Positions 59,852-63,870 of a stretch of 64,000 bases of DNA are shown here, piece after piece. The position numbers were made by a program, and so were the translations under genes. Every line of letters starts with the position of its first letter. Positions within the stretch are counted from its first letter, which is position 1. The notes below the pieces were generated by a model, which was not told the origin of the DNA, did no database searches, and was given only the letters and a program-made list of their open reading frames with translations. Origin of the DNA: Verrucomicrobiales bacterium (GTDB lineage: Bacteria; Verrucomicrobiota; Verrucomicrobiae; Limisphaerales; UBA1100); NCBI GenBank assembly GCA_002721895.1, contig PBLV01000044.1, positions 1 through 64,000 on the forward strand, written 5' to 3'.

Positions 59852-61240
59852 TCAGGCCCCGATCTGGCGAGTGAGTTCACCGGCGATCTTCCCGGTCCAT
59901 TCCTCCAGCAGCGCCTCATCCGGGCCCTCCAGCAACAGGCGAACCTTGGGTTCGGTTCCCGAATAACGCAGCAGAAGGCGACTGCTTTTGGATTTCAGGT
60001 TCGCCTCCGCCTCGGCAACAAGTTCATTGACACTTTCAAGCTCGTCAAAGGGCTTCTTTTCCTTCACCTGAATGTTGGTGATGACTTGGGGATGGCGCAC
60101 CCAGCATTGGGCAAGCTCGGAGAGCGGCTGGCCGGTTTCCTGCATGATGCGAAGCACCTGCAACGCAGCCACCAAGCCATCGCCCGCAGTGCCATGTTCG
60201 CTGAAAAGAATATGGCCGCTGGATTCCCCCCCAAGGCTGTAGCCGCCCTTGAGCATGGCATCGATGACATGCTTGTCACCCACAGGCGTGCGCAGGAGTT
60301 CCCCCCCCGCGTTCACCAGAGCCGCCTCCAAGCCGCTGTTCGTCATCACCGTACCCACGAGGGTCTTCTCCTGCAGGGCATCCTTGTTTAAAAGGTCCAA
60401 AGCACAGATGGCAAGGATGCCGTCGCCGTCAACCAACTGGCCTTTCTCGTCGCAGAGCAGCACCCGATCGGCATCCCCGTCATGGGTGATACCCAAATTT
60501 GCGGCGTGTTTTTCCACCTTGTGGCAAAGGTATTGCGGATGCATGGACCCACAGCCCGCGTTGATGTTCTTGCCGTCGGGCTGGTCGCCGTAGGCGATGA
60601 CTTCCGCTCCAAGTTCCCGAAGCGTGGTGGGGGTGGATTTGTAGGCCGCACCATGGGCGCAATCGACGACAATCCGAAATCCCTCAAGGGTCTGGCCACG
60701 TGGAAAAGAGCGCTTGGCAAACTCAACATAACGGCCCAGAGCGTCATCAATCCGCACGGCTTTACCAATCTCGGCAGCGGTGGGCCGCACGTTGTCAATC
60801 TCGCCGCTAAACACAAGCTGCTCGATCTGCCGTTCGATGGCATCATCGAGCTTGTAACCATCGTGGCGAAAGAACTTGATGCCGTTGTCGTCGTAGGGAT
60901 TGTGGGAAGCGGTGATGGCCAAACCGGCGTCGGCGCGCAGAGCTAGGGTGATGCGGGCGATGCCGGGGGTGGGCAGCGGGCCAATGAACAGGACATCCAC
61001 GCCCATGGAGAGAATGCCGCTGGCGAGGGCATTCTCAAGCATGTAGCCGGAGAGCCGCGTGTCCTTGCCGATGACGATGCGGTGTTTCTCGCGGCTGCGC
61101 GACTCGGGATTCAGGTTCTTGAAGACATGGGCGGCGGCGCGGCCAAGTTTAAGAGCGGTCTCGGCGGTAACCGGTTCCTGATTGGCGCGGCCGCGGACGC
61201 CATCCGTGCCAAAGATGCGGCTGGGATCAGAAGCACTCAT
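59852..61240 (-). CDS. glmM: Phosphoglucosamine mutase
   Basis: Converts glucosamine-6-phosphate to glucosamine-1-phosphate on the way to UDP-GlcNAc for peptidoglycan and LPS. It has 462 residues. The N-terminus has I-F-G-T-D-G-V-R-G-R-A-N, and the active-site serine is in T-A-S-H-N-P near residue 105. The sugar-binding loop G-E-S-S-G-H and the C-terminal R-Y-S-G-T-E-P phosphate site are present. The start overlaps the stop of the mini-cdaR gene (ATGA). Confidence 0.96.
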   Translation of the reverse strand: MSASDPSRIFGTDGVRGRANQEPVTAETALKLGRAAAHVFKNLNPESRSREKHRIVIGKDTRLSGYMLENALASGILSMGVDVLFIGPLPTPGIARITLALRADAGLAITASHNPYDDNGIKFFRHDGYKLDDAIERQIEQLVFSGEIDNVRPTAAEIGKAVRIDDALGRYVEFAKRSFPRGQTLEGFRIVVDCAHGAAYKSTPTTLRELGAEVIAYGDQPDGKNINAGCGSMHPQYLCHKVEKHAANLGITHDGDADRVLLCDEKGQLVDGDGILAICALDLLNKDALQEKTLVGTVMTNSGLEAALVNAGGELLRTPVGDKHVIDAMLKGGYSLGGESSGHILFSEHGTAGDGLVAALQVLRIMQETGQPLSELAQCWVRHPQVITNIQVKEKKPFDELESVNELVAEAEANLKSKSSRLLLRYSGTEPKVRLLLEGPDEALLEEWTGKIAGELTRQIGA

Positions 61241-61443
61241 TTCTTGGGCAGAGGAAACTGGATGGGAGCGTTGGTCAATGTATTGGCGGTATTGGGGGGT
61301 TTTTCCTTGGCCGCCGGGACCCGGGGGCTGGCATCATAAGAATAGCGCAGGTTGGCGCTGAGCTTGATCACCCACCACAACACGACGGCCAGCCCGAGCG
61401 AAACGAGCTTAAGTCCCATATCTTGTGTCAGCCGTTGTTTCAT
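61237..61443 (-). CDS. Miniature CdaR-like (YbbR) protein reduced to its membrane helix
   Basis: 68 residues. Near the N-terminus it has a hydrophobic helix, L-K-L-V-S-L-G-L-A-V-V-L-W-W-V-I, at about residues 11-28, matching the start of CdaR/YbbR, where the helix is followed by several YbbR domains of about 80 residues each. Here only about 40 hydrophilic residues follow (rich in Pro, Lys, Asn), ending P-L-P-K-K. Position between cdaA and glmM is the same as cdaR in Firmicutes. Both ends overlap neighbours as ATGA, which argues for a real gene. Confidence 0.75.
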   Translation of the reverse strand: MKQRLTQDMGLKLVSLGLAVVLWWVIKLSANLRYSYDASPRVPAAKEKPPNTANTLTNAPIQFPLPKK

Positions 61444-62360
61444 CCTGATTCGCTGGCACCGGTCTTACTGGATCGCTCGGGCAATTGTCGCAGCGATTCG
61501 CGTAGCCGGGCGCGCCATTGGGTAAAAGTGCCCTCGGGTTTTTTCTCGGGTTCAACGAGTGTGGCCTCAAGAAATTCGTTGAGCTTGTCTAGGTCCACAT
61601 CGCGGTGCAGTGCGCCGTCCTGACAATAGGAGATGGCACCGGTTTCCTCGGAAACAATAATGGCCAGCGCATCAGTATCTTCGGTGATGCCGATGGCGGC
61701 CCGATGGCGGGTGCCGAGGGTTTTCCGGATGTCCTGCCGGCTGGTGAGCGGAAATATGCAGGCGGCATGAGAAATGCGCTCACCACTGATAATCACGCCA
61801 CCGTCATGCAGCGGGCTGTTGGGGAAAAAGAGGGATTCAATCACCTCGGCGGAAGCCTTGCAGTCCATCTCCACGGCGGAGTGAAGGTCGTGATGCACAT
61901 CCACGGCGCGTTCAACGACGATCAGTGCTCCCGTGCGGCTGCGGGCCAAACGACGGGAGGCGTCGATCAACATGACGATGTTCTCCTGCTGGCGTTCCTC
62001 GCCGGTATTAAAGATTGGCAGATTGCCCAGCCCGGCCAGCAGACGGCGCAACTCGGGCTGGAATAGGATCAGGATGGCCAGCACCAAGAATGCGAACACG
62101 GCCTGAAGCAGCCAACTGAGTACCTGCAGATGCAGAATCTCCGTCACCAAGGTCAACGCCATAAGCAACAGAAAACCGGCCACCACCGGCCAGCCGCGGG
62201 TGCGCTTGAGGTATTGGAAGGCGTAGTAAATGACCACCGCTAGGACGCCAATTTCCGCCACGGCGCGCACCATCCACAGCCAATTGAGCAACCACCAGTC
62301 CCGTATGTCCAGCAACCAGCCGGGCAAATCTGTGACCAGCAACATGGGTTCCGGGATCAT
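61440..62360 (-). CDS. cdaA: Diadenylate cyclase CdaA (c-di-AMP synthase)
   Basis: Makes cyclic di-AMP from two ATP. It has 306 residues. Three membrane helices span about residues 28-100. The DAC domain follows, with S-P-L-H-D-G-G-V-I-I at about 184-193 and G-T-R-H-R-A-A-I-G at about 215-223. The usual D-G-A motif appears here as D-G-G. The C-terminal extension after the domain is Arg/Glu-rich. ATGA overlap with folP upstream and with the mini-cdaR gene downstream. Confidence 0.95.
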   Translation of the reverse strand: MIPEPMLLVTDLPGWLLDIRDWWLLNWLWMVRAVAEIGVLAVVIYYAFQYLKRTRGWPVVAGFLLLMALTLVTEILHLQVLSWLLQAVFAFLVLAILILFQPELRRLLAGLGNLPIFNTGEERQQENIVMLIDASRRLARSRTGALIVVERAVDVHHDLHSAVEMDCKASAEVIESLFFPNSPLHDGGVIISGERISHAACIFPLTSRQDIRKTLGTRHRAAIGITEDTDALAIIVSEETGAISYCQDGALHRDVDLDKLNEFLEATLVEPEKKPEGTFTQWRARLRESLRQLPERSSKTGASESG

Positions 62361-63190
62361 TGTGATTTTAAAATTGCCTCCGTTGTTCGCAGGGCCCGCA
62401 CGGTCTCCAAGACATCGTGCACGCGAATAATGCGTGCCCCGGCGGCCACGGCATGGCAGGCGCTGGCGAGGCTGCCGGACAGGCGATCCTCCACCGCCGC
62501 CCCAGTCAGCGCCCCCAAGAACGACTTGCGCGAAGCACCCACCACCAAGGGCCGCCCCAGCGTTGTAAAGCGGGTGAGGTTTGCGAGCAATGCCAAATTG
62601 TGCGCCACCGTCTTGCCAAAACCAATCCCCGGATCCAGGGCCACCTGCTCGGCCGCCACGCCGGCCGCCGCCAAGCGTTCTAGGCGGTCAATAAAGAACG
62701 CCTCCACCTCGGCCACCACGTCGGTGTACTCGGGCTGGTCCTGCATAGTTTCCGGTGTGCCGTGCATGTGCATGGCGATGTACCCTGCGCCTGTATCAGC
62801 CGCCACGCGCCAGAGGGTATCCTCCCGGCGGTTGGCGGCAATATCGTTGATAACCGCCGCACCGGCTGCCACAGCCGCCTTGGCCACGGCGGGCTTCTGC
62901 GTGTCAATAGATACCGGAACGCCCGACTCCGCCGCCAACTGCCTGACCACCGGGATGACTCGCCGCAATTCCTCGTCCTCGGACACCGGTTCCGCGCCGG
63001 GCCGGGTTGATTCCCCGCCGACATCCAGCAACCCCGCGCCGTCAGCTGCCAGACGCAGACCGTGCGCCACCGCCGCCGACGCATCCACAAACCTGCCGCC
63101 ATCGGAAAAAGAGTCCGGGGTGACATTGATGATTCCCATCACCAGTGTCTCCAGAAACTCCAGCCGATGTTCGCCCGCCCGCCAAAGCAT
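62357..63190 (-). CDS. folP: Dihydropteroate synthase
   Basis: Joins p-aminobenzoate with the pterin pyrophosphate in folate synthesis. It has 277 residues. The typical start G-I-I-N-V-T-P-D-S-F-S-D-G-G and G-G-E-S-T-R-P-G are present, with D-P-G-I-G-F-G-K-T and the S-R-K-S-F-L substrate site. Its stop overlaps cdaA (ATGA), so folate synthesis and c-di-AMP synthesis are in one unit. Only 33 bp separate its start from the end of the terminator of the upstream gene, leaving little room for a promoter. Confidence 0.96.
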   Translation of the reverse strand: MLWRAGEHRLEFLETLVMGIINVTPDSFSDGGRFVDASAAVAHGLRLAADGAGLLDVGGESTRPGAEPVSEDEELRRVIPVVRQLAAESGVPVSIDTQKPAVAKAAVAAGAAVINDIAANRREDTLWRVAADTGAGYIAMHMHGTPETMQDQPEYTDVVAEVEAFFIDRLERLAAAGVAAEQVALDPGIGFGKTVAHNLALLANLTRFTTLGRPLVVGASRKSFLGALTGAAVEDRLSGSLASACHAVAAGARIIRVHDVLETVRALRTTEAILKSQ

Positions 63191-63271: not shown

Positions 63272-63718
63272 TTATCGAAGATTGATGCGCCGGAACGGCT
63301 GCTGCAACGGGTTGGCGTTGTAGGTTGGCATTTGTACCGGCCGATACCGATAGAGATTGTAGCCGTTCTGCTGCTGGACCTGCGGCATGCGTTGGTTGAA
63401 GCCAAAGTTCTGCTGCATGGGCATGCGCTGTTGGAAACCGAAGTTCTGCTGGCTCTGCATGGGCATGCGCTGTTGGAAACCAAAGTTTTGTTGGCGCTGC
63501 ATGGGCATGCGCTGGTTGAAGCCGAATTTCTGCTGCATGGGCATCATGTGGTTGAACCCAACTTTTTGGCCTCGCTGAAAAGCGTTGAATTCACGGCCCT
63601 TGTTTTTCGCAAACTCACCTTGGCGTTTGTTGGTCATGCAGCCTTCGCCTCCGGCCCGCGCCGTATCAGCCACGCCCAACATCAGGGCCGCGGCGGTGAA
63701 TGTGAGGATCTGTTTCAT
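63272..63718 (-). CDS. Secreted Met-Pro-Gln repeat protein
   Basis: 148 residues from ATG 63718, preceded by AGGAG with 4-5 nt spacing, the best Shine-Dalgarno sequence in the window. A signal peptide (about 1-22, T-A-R-A end) is followed by a basic stretch, then five repeats at residues 51-116, for example Q-N-F-G-F-Q-Q-R-M-P-M-Q, then an Asn/Pro/Arg/Tyr-rich tail. No family is recognised. The composition (Gln, Met, Phe, Arg, Pro) suggests an extended, self-associating surface or matrix protein. A longer frame starts at 63817 but lacks a signal. Confidence 0.8.
   Translation of the reverse strand: MKQILTFTAAALMLGVADTARAGGEGCMTNKRQGEFAKNKGREFNAFQRGQKVGFNHMMPMQQKFGFNQRMPMQRQQNFGFQQRMPMQSQQNFGFQQRMPMQQNFGFNQRMPQVQQQNGYNLYRYRPVQMPTYNANPLQQPFRRINLR
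63368..63568 (-). repeat. Tandem repeats inside the Met-Pro-Gln protein
   Basis: Five 36-42-bp units encoding Q-x-G-F-x-x-R-M-P-M-Q-type repeats (12-14 residues each). Unit lengths vary by one or two codons, so copy number may vary between strains. Confidence 0.85.
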
Positions 63719-63870
63719 GTTTCTCCTAGGTTGAAGATTTGGGTTGTTGTTTTCCCTTACATCGAATTTAAGGGGCTCCTTCTTACAACAAAATATCATA
63801 CTCATGCACGTCCGCAAGCCGCCCGCGCATTTTTGTCGCCATGCCTCCCACCGCGGCTACAATCCCGCGC

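Follow-up and report, generated by a model that had tools for sequence, protein, structure and literature searches.

A CdaR reduced to its membrane helix in a Verrucomicrobiales folP-cdaA-cdaR-glmM operon, and the recurrence of this state in Verrucomicrobiota and Omnitrophota

We studied a small gene in a 64,000-nucleotide stretch of the genome of a Verrucomicrobiales bacterium (contig PBLV01000044.1; the whole stretch is referred to below as the window). This gene lies directly downstream of cdaA, which encodes a membrane diadenylate cyclase (DAC) producing the bacterial messenger cyclic di-AMP (c-di-AMP), and upstream of glmM, and its product is only 68 amino acids long. YbbR domains have long been regarded as the working end of CdaR. 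Our analysis suggests that the 68-amino-acid protein is probably a CdaR shorn of its YbbR domains, whose remaining signal-anchor helix would serve CdaA as a fourth membrane helix. Directly established are its homology to the CdaR helix, its operon position, the absence of detectable YbbR in relatives, purifying selection, the recurrence of the same state, and fusion to CdaA in one lineage.

The order folP-cdaA-small gene-glmM with overlapping joints, which the original prediction had read from the letters, was borne out by the open reading frame (ORF) coordinates and by family matches: all four genes are on the minus strand and all neighbors are joined by 4-base overlaps (Table 1). The CdaA of the window has both the CdaA_N membrane domain and the DAC domain, and LHDGG and RHRAA stretches are found in its sequence. 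It had also been claimed that CdaR here has only 68 residues, and this proved correct, the protein consisting of a helix and a short tail with the YbbR domain absent. Its N terminus is MKQRLTQDMGLKLVSLGLAVVLWWVIKLSANLRYSY, and its C-terminal end is a variable tail that probably lies outside the cytoplasmic membrane. Because the 90%-identity cluster of the protein holds 6 member sequences from 11 contigs and six further homologs of 57 to 68 amino acids share 50 to 61% identity with it, an assembly error is unlikely.

The 68-amino-acid protein gave no Pfam or NCBIfam match at an E value of ≤10, and no YbbR domain (PF07949) was recognized in it, 39 residues remaining after its conserved helix block (DMGLKLVSLGLAVVLWWVIKLS). 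An N-terminal membrane helix bearing the motif of CdaR was recognized by a position matrix trained solely on YbbR-bearing CdaRs, the blocks having been located earlier with a matrix from both classes. All 67 helix-only proteins that we collected, including that of the window, scored at least 17.3 bits (median, 37.1), and the maximum over 779 windows drawn at random from the same loci was 8.4 bits. Position 5 of the block is K in 99% and 97% of the two CdaR classes, position 8 is always small, mostly S or A, in both, position 12 is A in 96% and 100%, and position 16 is W in 92% and 97%. Conservation follows the 100-degree periodicity of a helix in both classes (permutation P = 0.0001 and 0.0035), and the per-position conservation of helix-only and YbbR-bearing CdaRs correlates at 0.93. 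As far as conservation in the alignments can tell, one face of the helix is thus preserved whether or not a YbbR domain is present. Since the protein does not fit the domain definition of a YbbR protein, we class it, on sequence grounds, as a CdaR-derived helix-only variant. A sequence search of the PDB gave no match for the mini protein, and matches for a multi-YbbR CdaR were limited to chains of 90 to 119 amino acids.

We scanned genome contigs with a CdaA alignment and obtained 80 cdaA loci. CdaR is YbbR-bearing in 70 of them and helix-only in 9, and it is absent from 1, from Clostridia. The closest relative is locus L001, whose CdaA is 67% identical to that of the window, and L001 to L003 carry versions of 64 to 83 amino acids like the one in the window. 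In the nearest Verrucomicrobiota, the usual arrangement is folP-cdaA-cdaR-glmM, and CdaR has about 130 to 200 amino acids and one YbbR domain. PF07949 is insensitive to such single domains: it scored over the cutoff in only two of four control genomes, and among single-YbbR CdaRs, L006 was over the cutoff and L004 slightly under. Because of this weakness, we built our own profiles, A3 for single-YbbR and A4 for multi-YbbR proteins.

CdaA was found in 54 of 58 searched relatives of the L001 genome. Among the 20 relatives listed first, an order that does not imply rank of kinship, 17 have cdaA; 15 of these have a complete mini gene (64 to 83 amino acids), one has a mini gene cut by the contig end, and in one the contig ends at cdaA. 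Profile A3 found no YbbR match in any of these 20 genomes. In the 38 other relatives, it found YbbR beside cdaA in 35 (E ≤ 1.3e-8), some of which had themselves contributed rows to A3. The two of these 38 with CdaA and without YbbR, G044 and G046, both encode mini proteins (L117 and L142). A further A3 match in G046 (E = 0.04) was not counted as YbbR, as it contains internal stops. In the clade of the window, glmM still adjoins the helix-only gene.

We then looked at nine genomes with mini proteins more closely. PF07949 gave only matches below the cutoff, in three of the nine (E = 0.15 to 0.5; best, 0.149), A3 gave nothing apart from a single match of 10.4 bits (E = 0.8), and A4 gave no match in any of them. 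The corresponding controls were detected, with A3 matching all six YbbR-type genomes (E ≤ 6e-12), five of them outside the profile, and A4 matching two of two. When A4 was run on a larger set of 60 genomes, 52 of the 53 helix-only ones (a number that includes one cut by a contig end) were without a match, and five of five controls were matched (E ≤ 1e-19); the remaining two genomes, G035 and G362, were not classed as helix-only. Many of the searched genomes are metagenome-assembled genomes (MAGs) of uncertain completeness, so that a single absence is weak evidence, which does not hold for the overall pattern. A YbbR domain elsewhere in the genome as the true CdaR, or poor conservation of the small protein, would have spoken against the original prediction. 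Apart from the matches below the cutoff and a second cyclase in genome G152, described below, no such YbbR domain was found in relatives, and the small gene turned out to be strongly conserved across related genomes.

The state is not limited to the close relatives of the window. A sample of 288 genomes from across the phylum contained 240 with CdaA and 149 with an A3 match (E ≤ 0.01). At least 91 of the 288 are CdaA positive and A3 negative, and of 37 of these that were fetched, 27 are helix-only. The assumption that all such genomes are helix-only was rejected, as A3 had missed two or three YbbR domains in each of the other 10. In 39 relatives of one Omnitrophota genome, CdaA was found in 35 and an A4 match in 17, and 13 of 30 fetched Omnitrophota loci encode mini proteins of 27 to 60 amino acids, a length that depends on the choice of start. 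Altogether, 218 loci were examined and 9 were dropped for want of a CdaA match. The 209 classified cdaA loci, including that of the window, comprise 139 YbbR-bearing, 67 helix-only, and 1 cut locus, and 2 without a readable CdaR helix (L080, from a Clostridia MAG, and L114, at a contig end). Near relatives and A3-negative genomes are overrepresented in the sample, which also contains duplicates (e.g., L001 and L106), so that 67 of 209 is not an estimate of frequency. The two classes are separated by length, with 2 to 48 residues after the helix block in the helix-only class, several Omnitrophota forms having merely 2 to 7, and at least 99 in the YbbR class. The sole exception is L026/L093, one genome with a broken frame and 81 residues after the helix. 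In L026 (6019-7200), the CdaA frame enters a single-YbbR CdaR; this candidate CdaA-CdaR fusion was set aside as a probable assembly indel, because the adjoining glmM frame is broken too. The small gene, for which the original prediction had proposed a search in Verrucomicrobia, is found there and also in Omnitrophota, and helix-only CdaR is, judged by these loci, a recurrent state in both phyla. Genes other than glmM, named by eye, also follow helix-only cdaR, namely, pdxJ- and acpS-like genes (L075 and L076), a miaA-like gene (L211), and an FtsY-like gene (L043). At L153, L169, and L172, the helix-only gene shares 113 to 116 bases with the 3' end of cdaA, in another frame.

We next considered selection on the small gene. 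In 21 non-independent close pairs from the clade of the window, the window itself being excluded, the ratio of non-synonymous to synonymous substitution rates (dN/dS) is 0.014 for the helix, 0.024 for the next seven residues, and 0.26 for the tail. This juxtamembrane stretch keeps the motif A-x-L-x-Y-S/T in the clade, with N next in most rows. For the more diverged pair of the window and L001, the proportions of non-synonymous (pN) and synonymous (pS) differences are 0.24 and 0.58 in the helix and 0.62 and 0.67 in the tail. In an Akkermansia-type group (55 pairs of 11 sequences, the stretch overlapping cdaA excluded), differences in the helix number 222 synonymous and 0 non-synonymous, and those in the tail 364 and 176.

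A tree built from 181 CdaA rows (101 with one YbbR domain, 3 with two, 17 with three, and 60 that are helix-only, of which one is cut; L079 was omitted as short) placed the window inside a clade of 18 rows, all of them helix-only (Shimodaira-Hasegawa-like approximate likelihood ratio test [SH-aLRT], 96, starred), with a single-YbbR sister (95, starred). The tree requires at least 14 changes between the two states, of which at least 5 are forced by starred branches; it is a quick build with long branches, and the method does not give the direction of change. The simple reading is that YbbR was lost in the lineage of the window. As the helix-only state is shared by relatives and the helix is strongly preserved, the helix is suggested to be the part that the enzyme needs.

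In one lineage, the helix is found within CdaA itself. Genome G291 encodes a 325-amino-acid CdaA that continues into this helix, and a 99% identical protein from Verrucomicrobium spinosum is present in the protein database. Among the 120 matches to this fusion that were listed, 21 have at least 311 amino acids, and 20 of these carry the C-terminal helix motif after a variable linker. AlphaFold2 (49 aligned rows) modeled a helix at residues 284 to 314; the mean predicted local distance difference test score (pLDDT) of the model is 82.7, and the block means are 78, 90, and 79 across residues 281 to 310 and 49 for residues 311 to 320. Structure comparison of this model recovered the known cyclase domain and barely probed the membrane part and the helix. 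PDB entry 9g69, titled as a complex of the CdaA DAC domain with GlmM, has a chain sequence that includes the membrane part.

Eleven genomes encode a near-invariant 50-amino-acid protein whose gene overlaps cdaA by 23 bases. In the Akkermansia-type locus, the next gene is bioD-like (identified by eye), and this helix-only group apparently includes Akkermansia muciniphila. Three loci titled Akkermansia muciniphila (L010, L047, and L052) have a CdaA that groups with the single-YbbR clade, and these names look wrong.

These findings can be joined in the following model. CdaR would have lost its YbbR domains and kept its signal-anchor helix, which most likely inserts with the N terminus inside and the C terminus outside. 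The face formed by K5, S/A8, A12, and W16 of the block would then most likely pack on the three-helix membrane domain of CdaA, and the fourth helix would serve the stability, oligomeric state, or activity of CdaA, with a possible effect on c-di-AMP that could be of either sign. The YbbR domains of other CdaRs would be a removable outer module. On balance, we lean toward a wider form of this model, in which the indispensable part of CdaR is a single membrane helix, a subunit of CdaA, YbbR is optional and has been repeatedly lost, and the cyclase of Verrucomicrobiota and Omnitrophota often works with a bare or fused helix.

Three lines speak for contact of the helix with CdaA: the conserved face common to both CdaR classes, the natural fusions, and published Firmicutes data. 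CdaR is described as meeting CdaA through the membrane domains of both, and AlphaFold points to the first CdaA helix as the possible site of contact (PMC10243994); two-hybrid data map YbbR to the CdaA membrane region (PMC6368335); and a suppressor of a ybbR deletion in Staphylococcus aureus lies in the third helix of DacA (PMC5207132). The original prediction proposed a minimal regulator touching CdaA via its helix. The reduction to a helix stands, the contact is a prediction drawn from these three lines, and we only infer that the 68-amino-acid protein regulates the cyclase.

Several results weigh against the model. In a covariation analysis of 226 CdaA-helix pairs (effective number, 127), the CdaA membrane part held 11 of the 20 best-scoring inter-protein pairs, and shuffled pairings gave 3 to 11, a range that includes the observed value; of five single pairs that beat the best of 20 shuffles, three fall elsewhere than in the membrane region. 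For the fusion, AlphaFold2 gave a predicted template modeling score (pTM) of 0.58. L080 has CdaA and no such helix in the scanned stretch, so that not every CdaA is accompanied by the helix. In G152, which has a helix-only operonic CdaR, a second cyclase matches A4 weakly (E = 6e-4). Finally, published effects of CdaR on CdaA are opposite, activator and repressor (PMC8573169). As to the second DAC protein of G152 (L227:1384-2880, minus strand, 498 amino acids), its extra C-terminal part is weakly YbbR-like.

Other explanations fit part of these data. The 4-base overlaps at both ends of the gene and its variable tail could be those of a relic, a dying cdaR retained merely to couple translation of cdaA and glmM. 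This is strongly disfavored, and in our estimate very improbable, because the helix is under purifying selection (dN/dS of about 0.014 in close relatives and no non-synonymous difference in the Akkermansia type); moreover, the helix is retained without glmM next to it (the bioD-like gene of the Akkermansia type, pdxJ-like at L075/L076, and FtsY-like at L043, all by eye), and the reduced state recurs on the CdaA tree. It is equally hard to credit that a full YbbR protein acts in trans from elsewhere in the genome of the window: in searches that covered the genomes of relatives, A3 matched none of the 20 listed first, and 52 of 53 helix-only genomes were without an A4 match, with all five controls detected.

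A helix that does not bind CdaA, and instead recruits GlmM or an outer partner or self-oligomerizes, would be consistent with the juxtamembrane motif conserved in the clade of the window and with the adjoining glmM. However, one lineage fuses the helix to CdaA and not to GlmM, several Omnitrophota forms end 2 to 7 residues past the helix block, and GlmM of Firmicutes is reported to bind the cytosolic cyclase domain directly (PMC6368335), and we consider this explanation unlikely. The fusion bears also on the idea that the helix is a co-translational insertion or folding factor for CdaA. The small size of the protein and the position of its gene directly after cdaA, often overlapping it, would suit such a factor, but a permanent fusion in Verrucomicrobium spinosum and relatives better fits a lasting subunit, which makes a transient role rather unlikely.

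The 68-amino-acid protein resembles the CdaR of Firmicutes (cdaA-cdaR-glmM) in its position between cdaA and glmM and in its N-terminal membrane helix. It lacks outer YbbR domains, whereas CdaR of lactic acid bacteria is described with three or four (PMC10243994). The single-YbbR CdaRs of the nearest Verrucomicrobiota (e.g., L006 and L119) share the folP-cdaA-cdaR-glmM operon and the helix face with the window but, unlike the 68-amino-acid protein, have about 100 to 130 residues after the helix, corresponding to one YbbR domain. KdpF and CydX are single-helix subunits encoded in the operon of their membrane enzyme; their likeness to the 68-amino-acid protein is an analogy alone, and we claim no sequence relation. 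In streptococcal CdaA-CdaR fusions, the cyclase is covalently joined to CdaR, as in Verrucomicrobium spinosum; these fusions are termed large (PMC10243994), whereas the Verrucomicrobium spinosum type stops shortly after the helix. The membrane contact between CdaR and CdaA and the streptococcal fusions are thus already in print. We found no description of a helix-only CdaR among the titles and abstract openings that searches of open papers listed.

How CdaR acts on CdaA is debated: the mode of regulation has been called unclear (PMC8573169), and results differ in sign between bacteria (PMC8573169, PMC9259658). Bacteria without the outer domains and with a strongly selected helix isolate what is probably the essential part of CdaR in peptides of 27 to 83 residues and in natural fusions, and because of this, the question becomes directly testable. 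If the Akkermansia assignment is true, it would be relevant to a reported source of c-di-AMP, since c-di-AMP from A. muciniphila is said to stimulate host immunity in a review citing Lam 2021 (PMC10243994).

Table 1. Features of the cdaA operon in the window
Feature	Positions	Strand	Basis or remark
folP, dihydropteroate synthase	62357..63190	minus	NCBIfam TIGR01496, 327 bits, over cutoff
cdaA, membrane diadenylate cyclase	61440..62360	minus	Pfam PF02457 and PF19293 and NCBIfam TIGR00159, all over cutoff
Helix-only CdaR, 68 amino acids: CdaR signal-anchor helix and short tail, without YbbR	61237..61443	minus	
Conserved 22-residue block DMGLKLVSLGLAVVLWWVIKLS, residues 8-29	61357..61422	minus	Carries the K, S, A, W face
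Juxtamembrane stretch ANLRYSY, residues 30-36	61336..61356	minus	Alignment and dN/dS
Variable proline-rich tail, residues 37-68	61240..61335	minus	dN/dS 0.26
glmM, phosphoglucosamine mutase	59852..61240	minus	TIGR01455, 562 bits versus cutoff of 447.55

Just upstream of folP, an ORF on the minus strand (63272-63817) encodes M-, Q-, F-, and N-rich repeats (FGFNQRMPMQ...).

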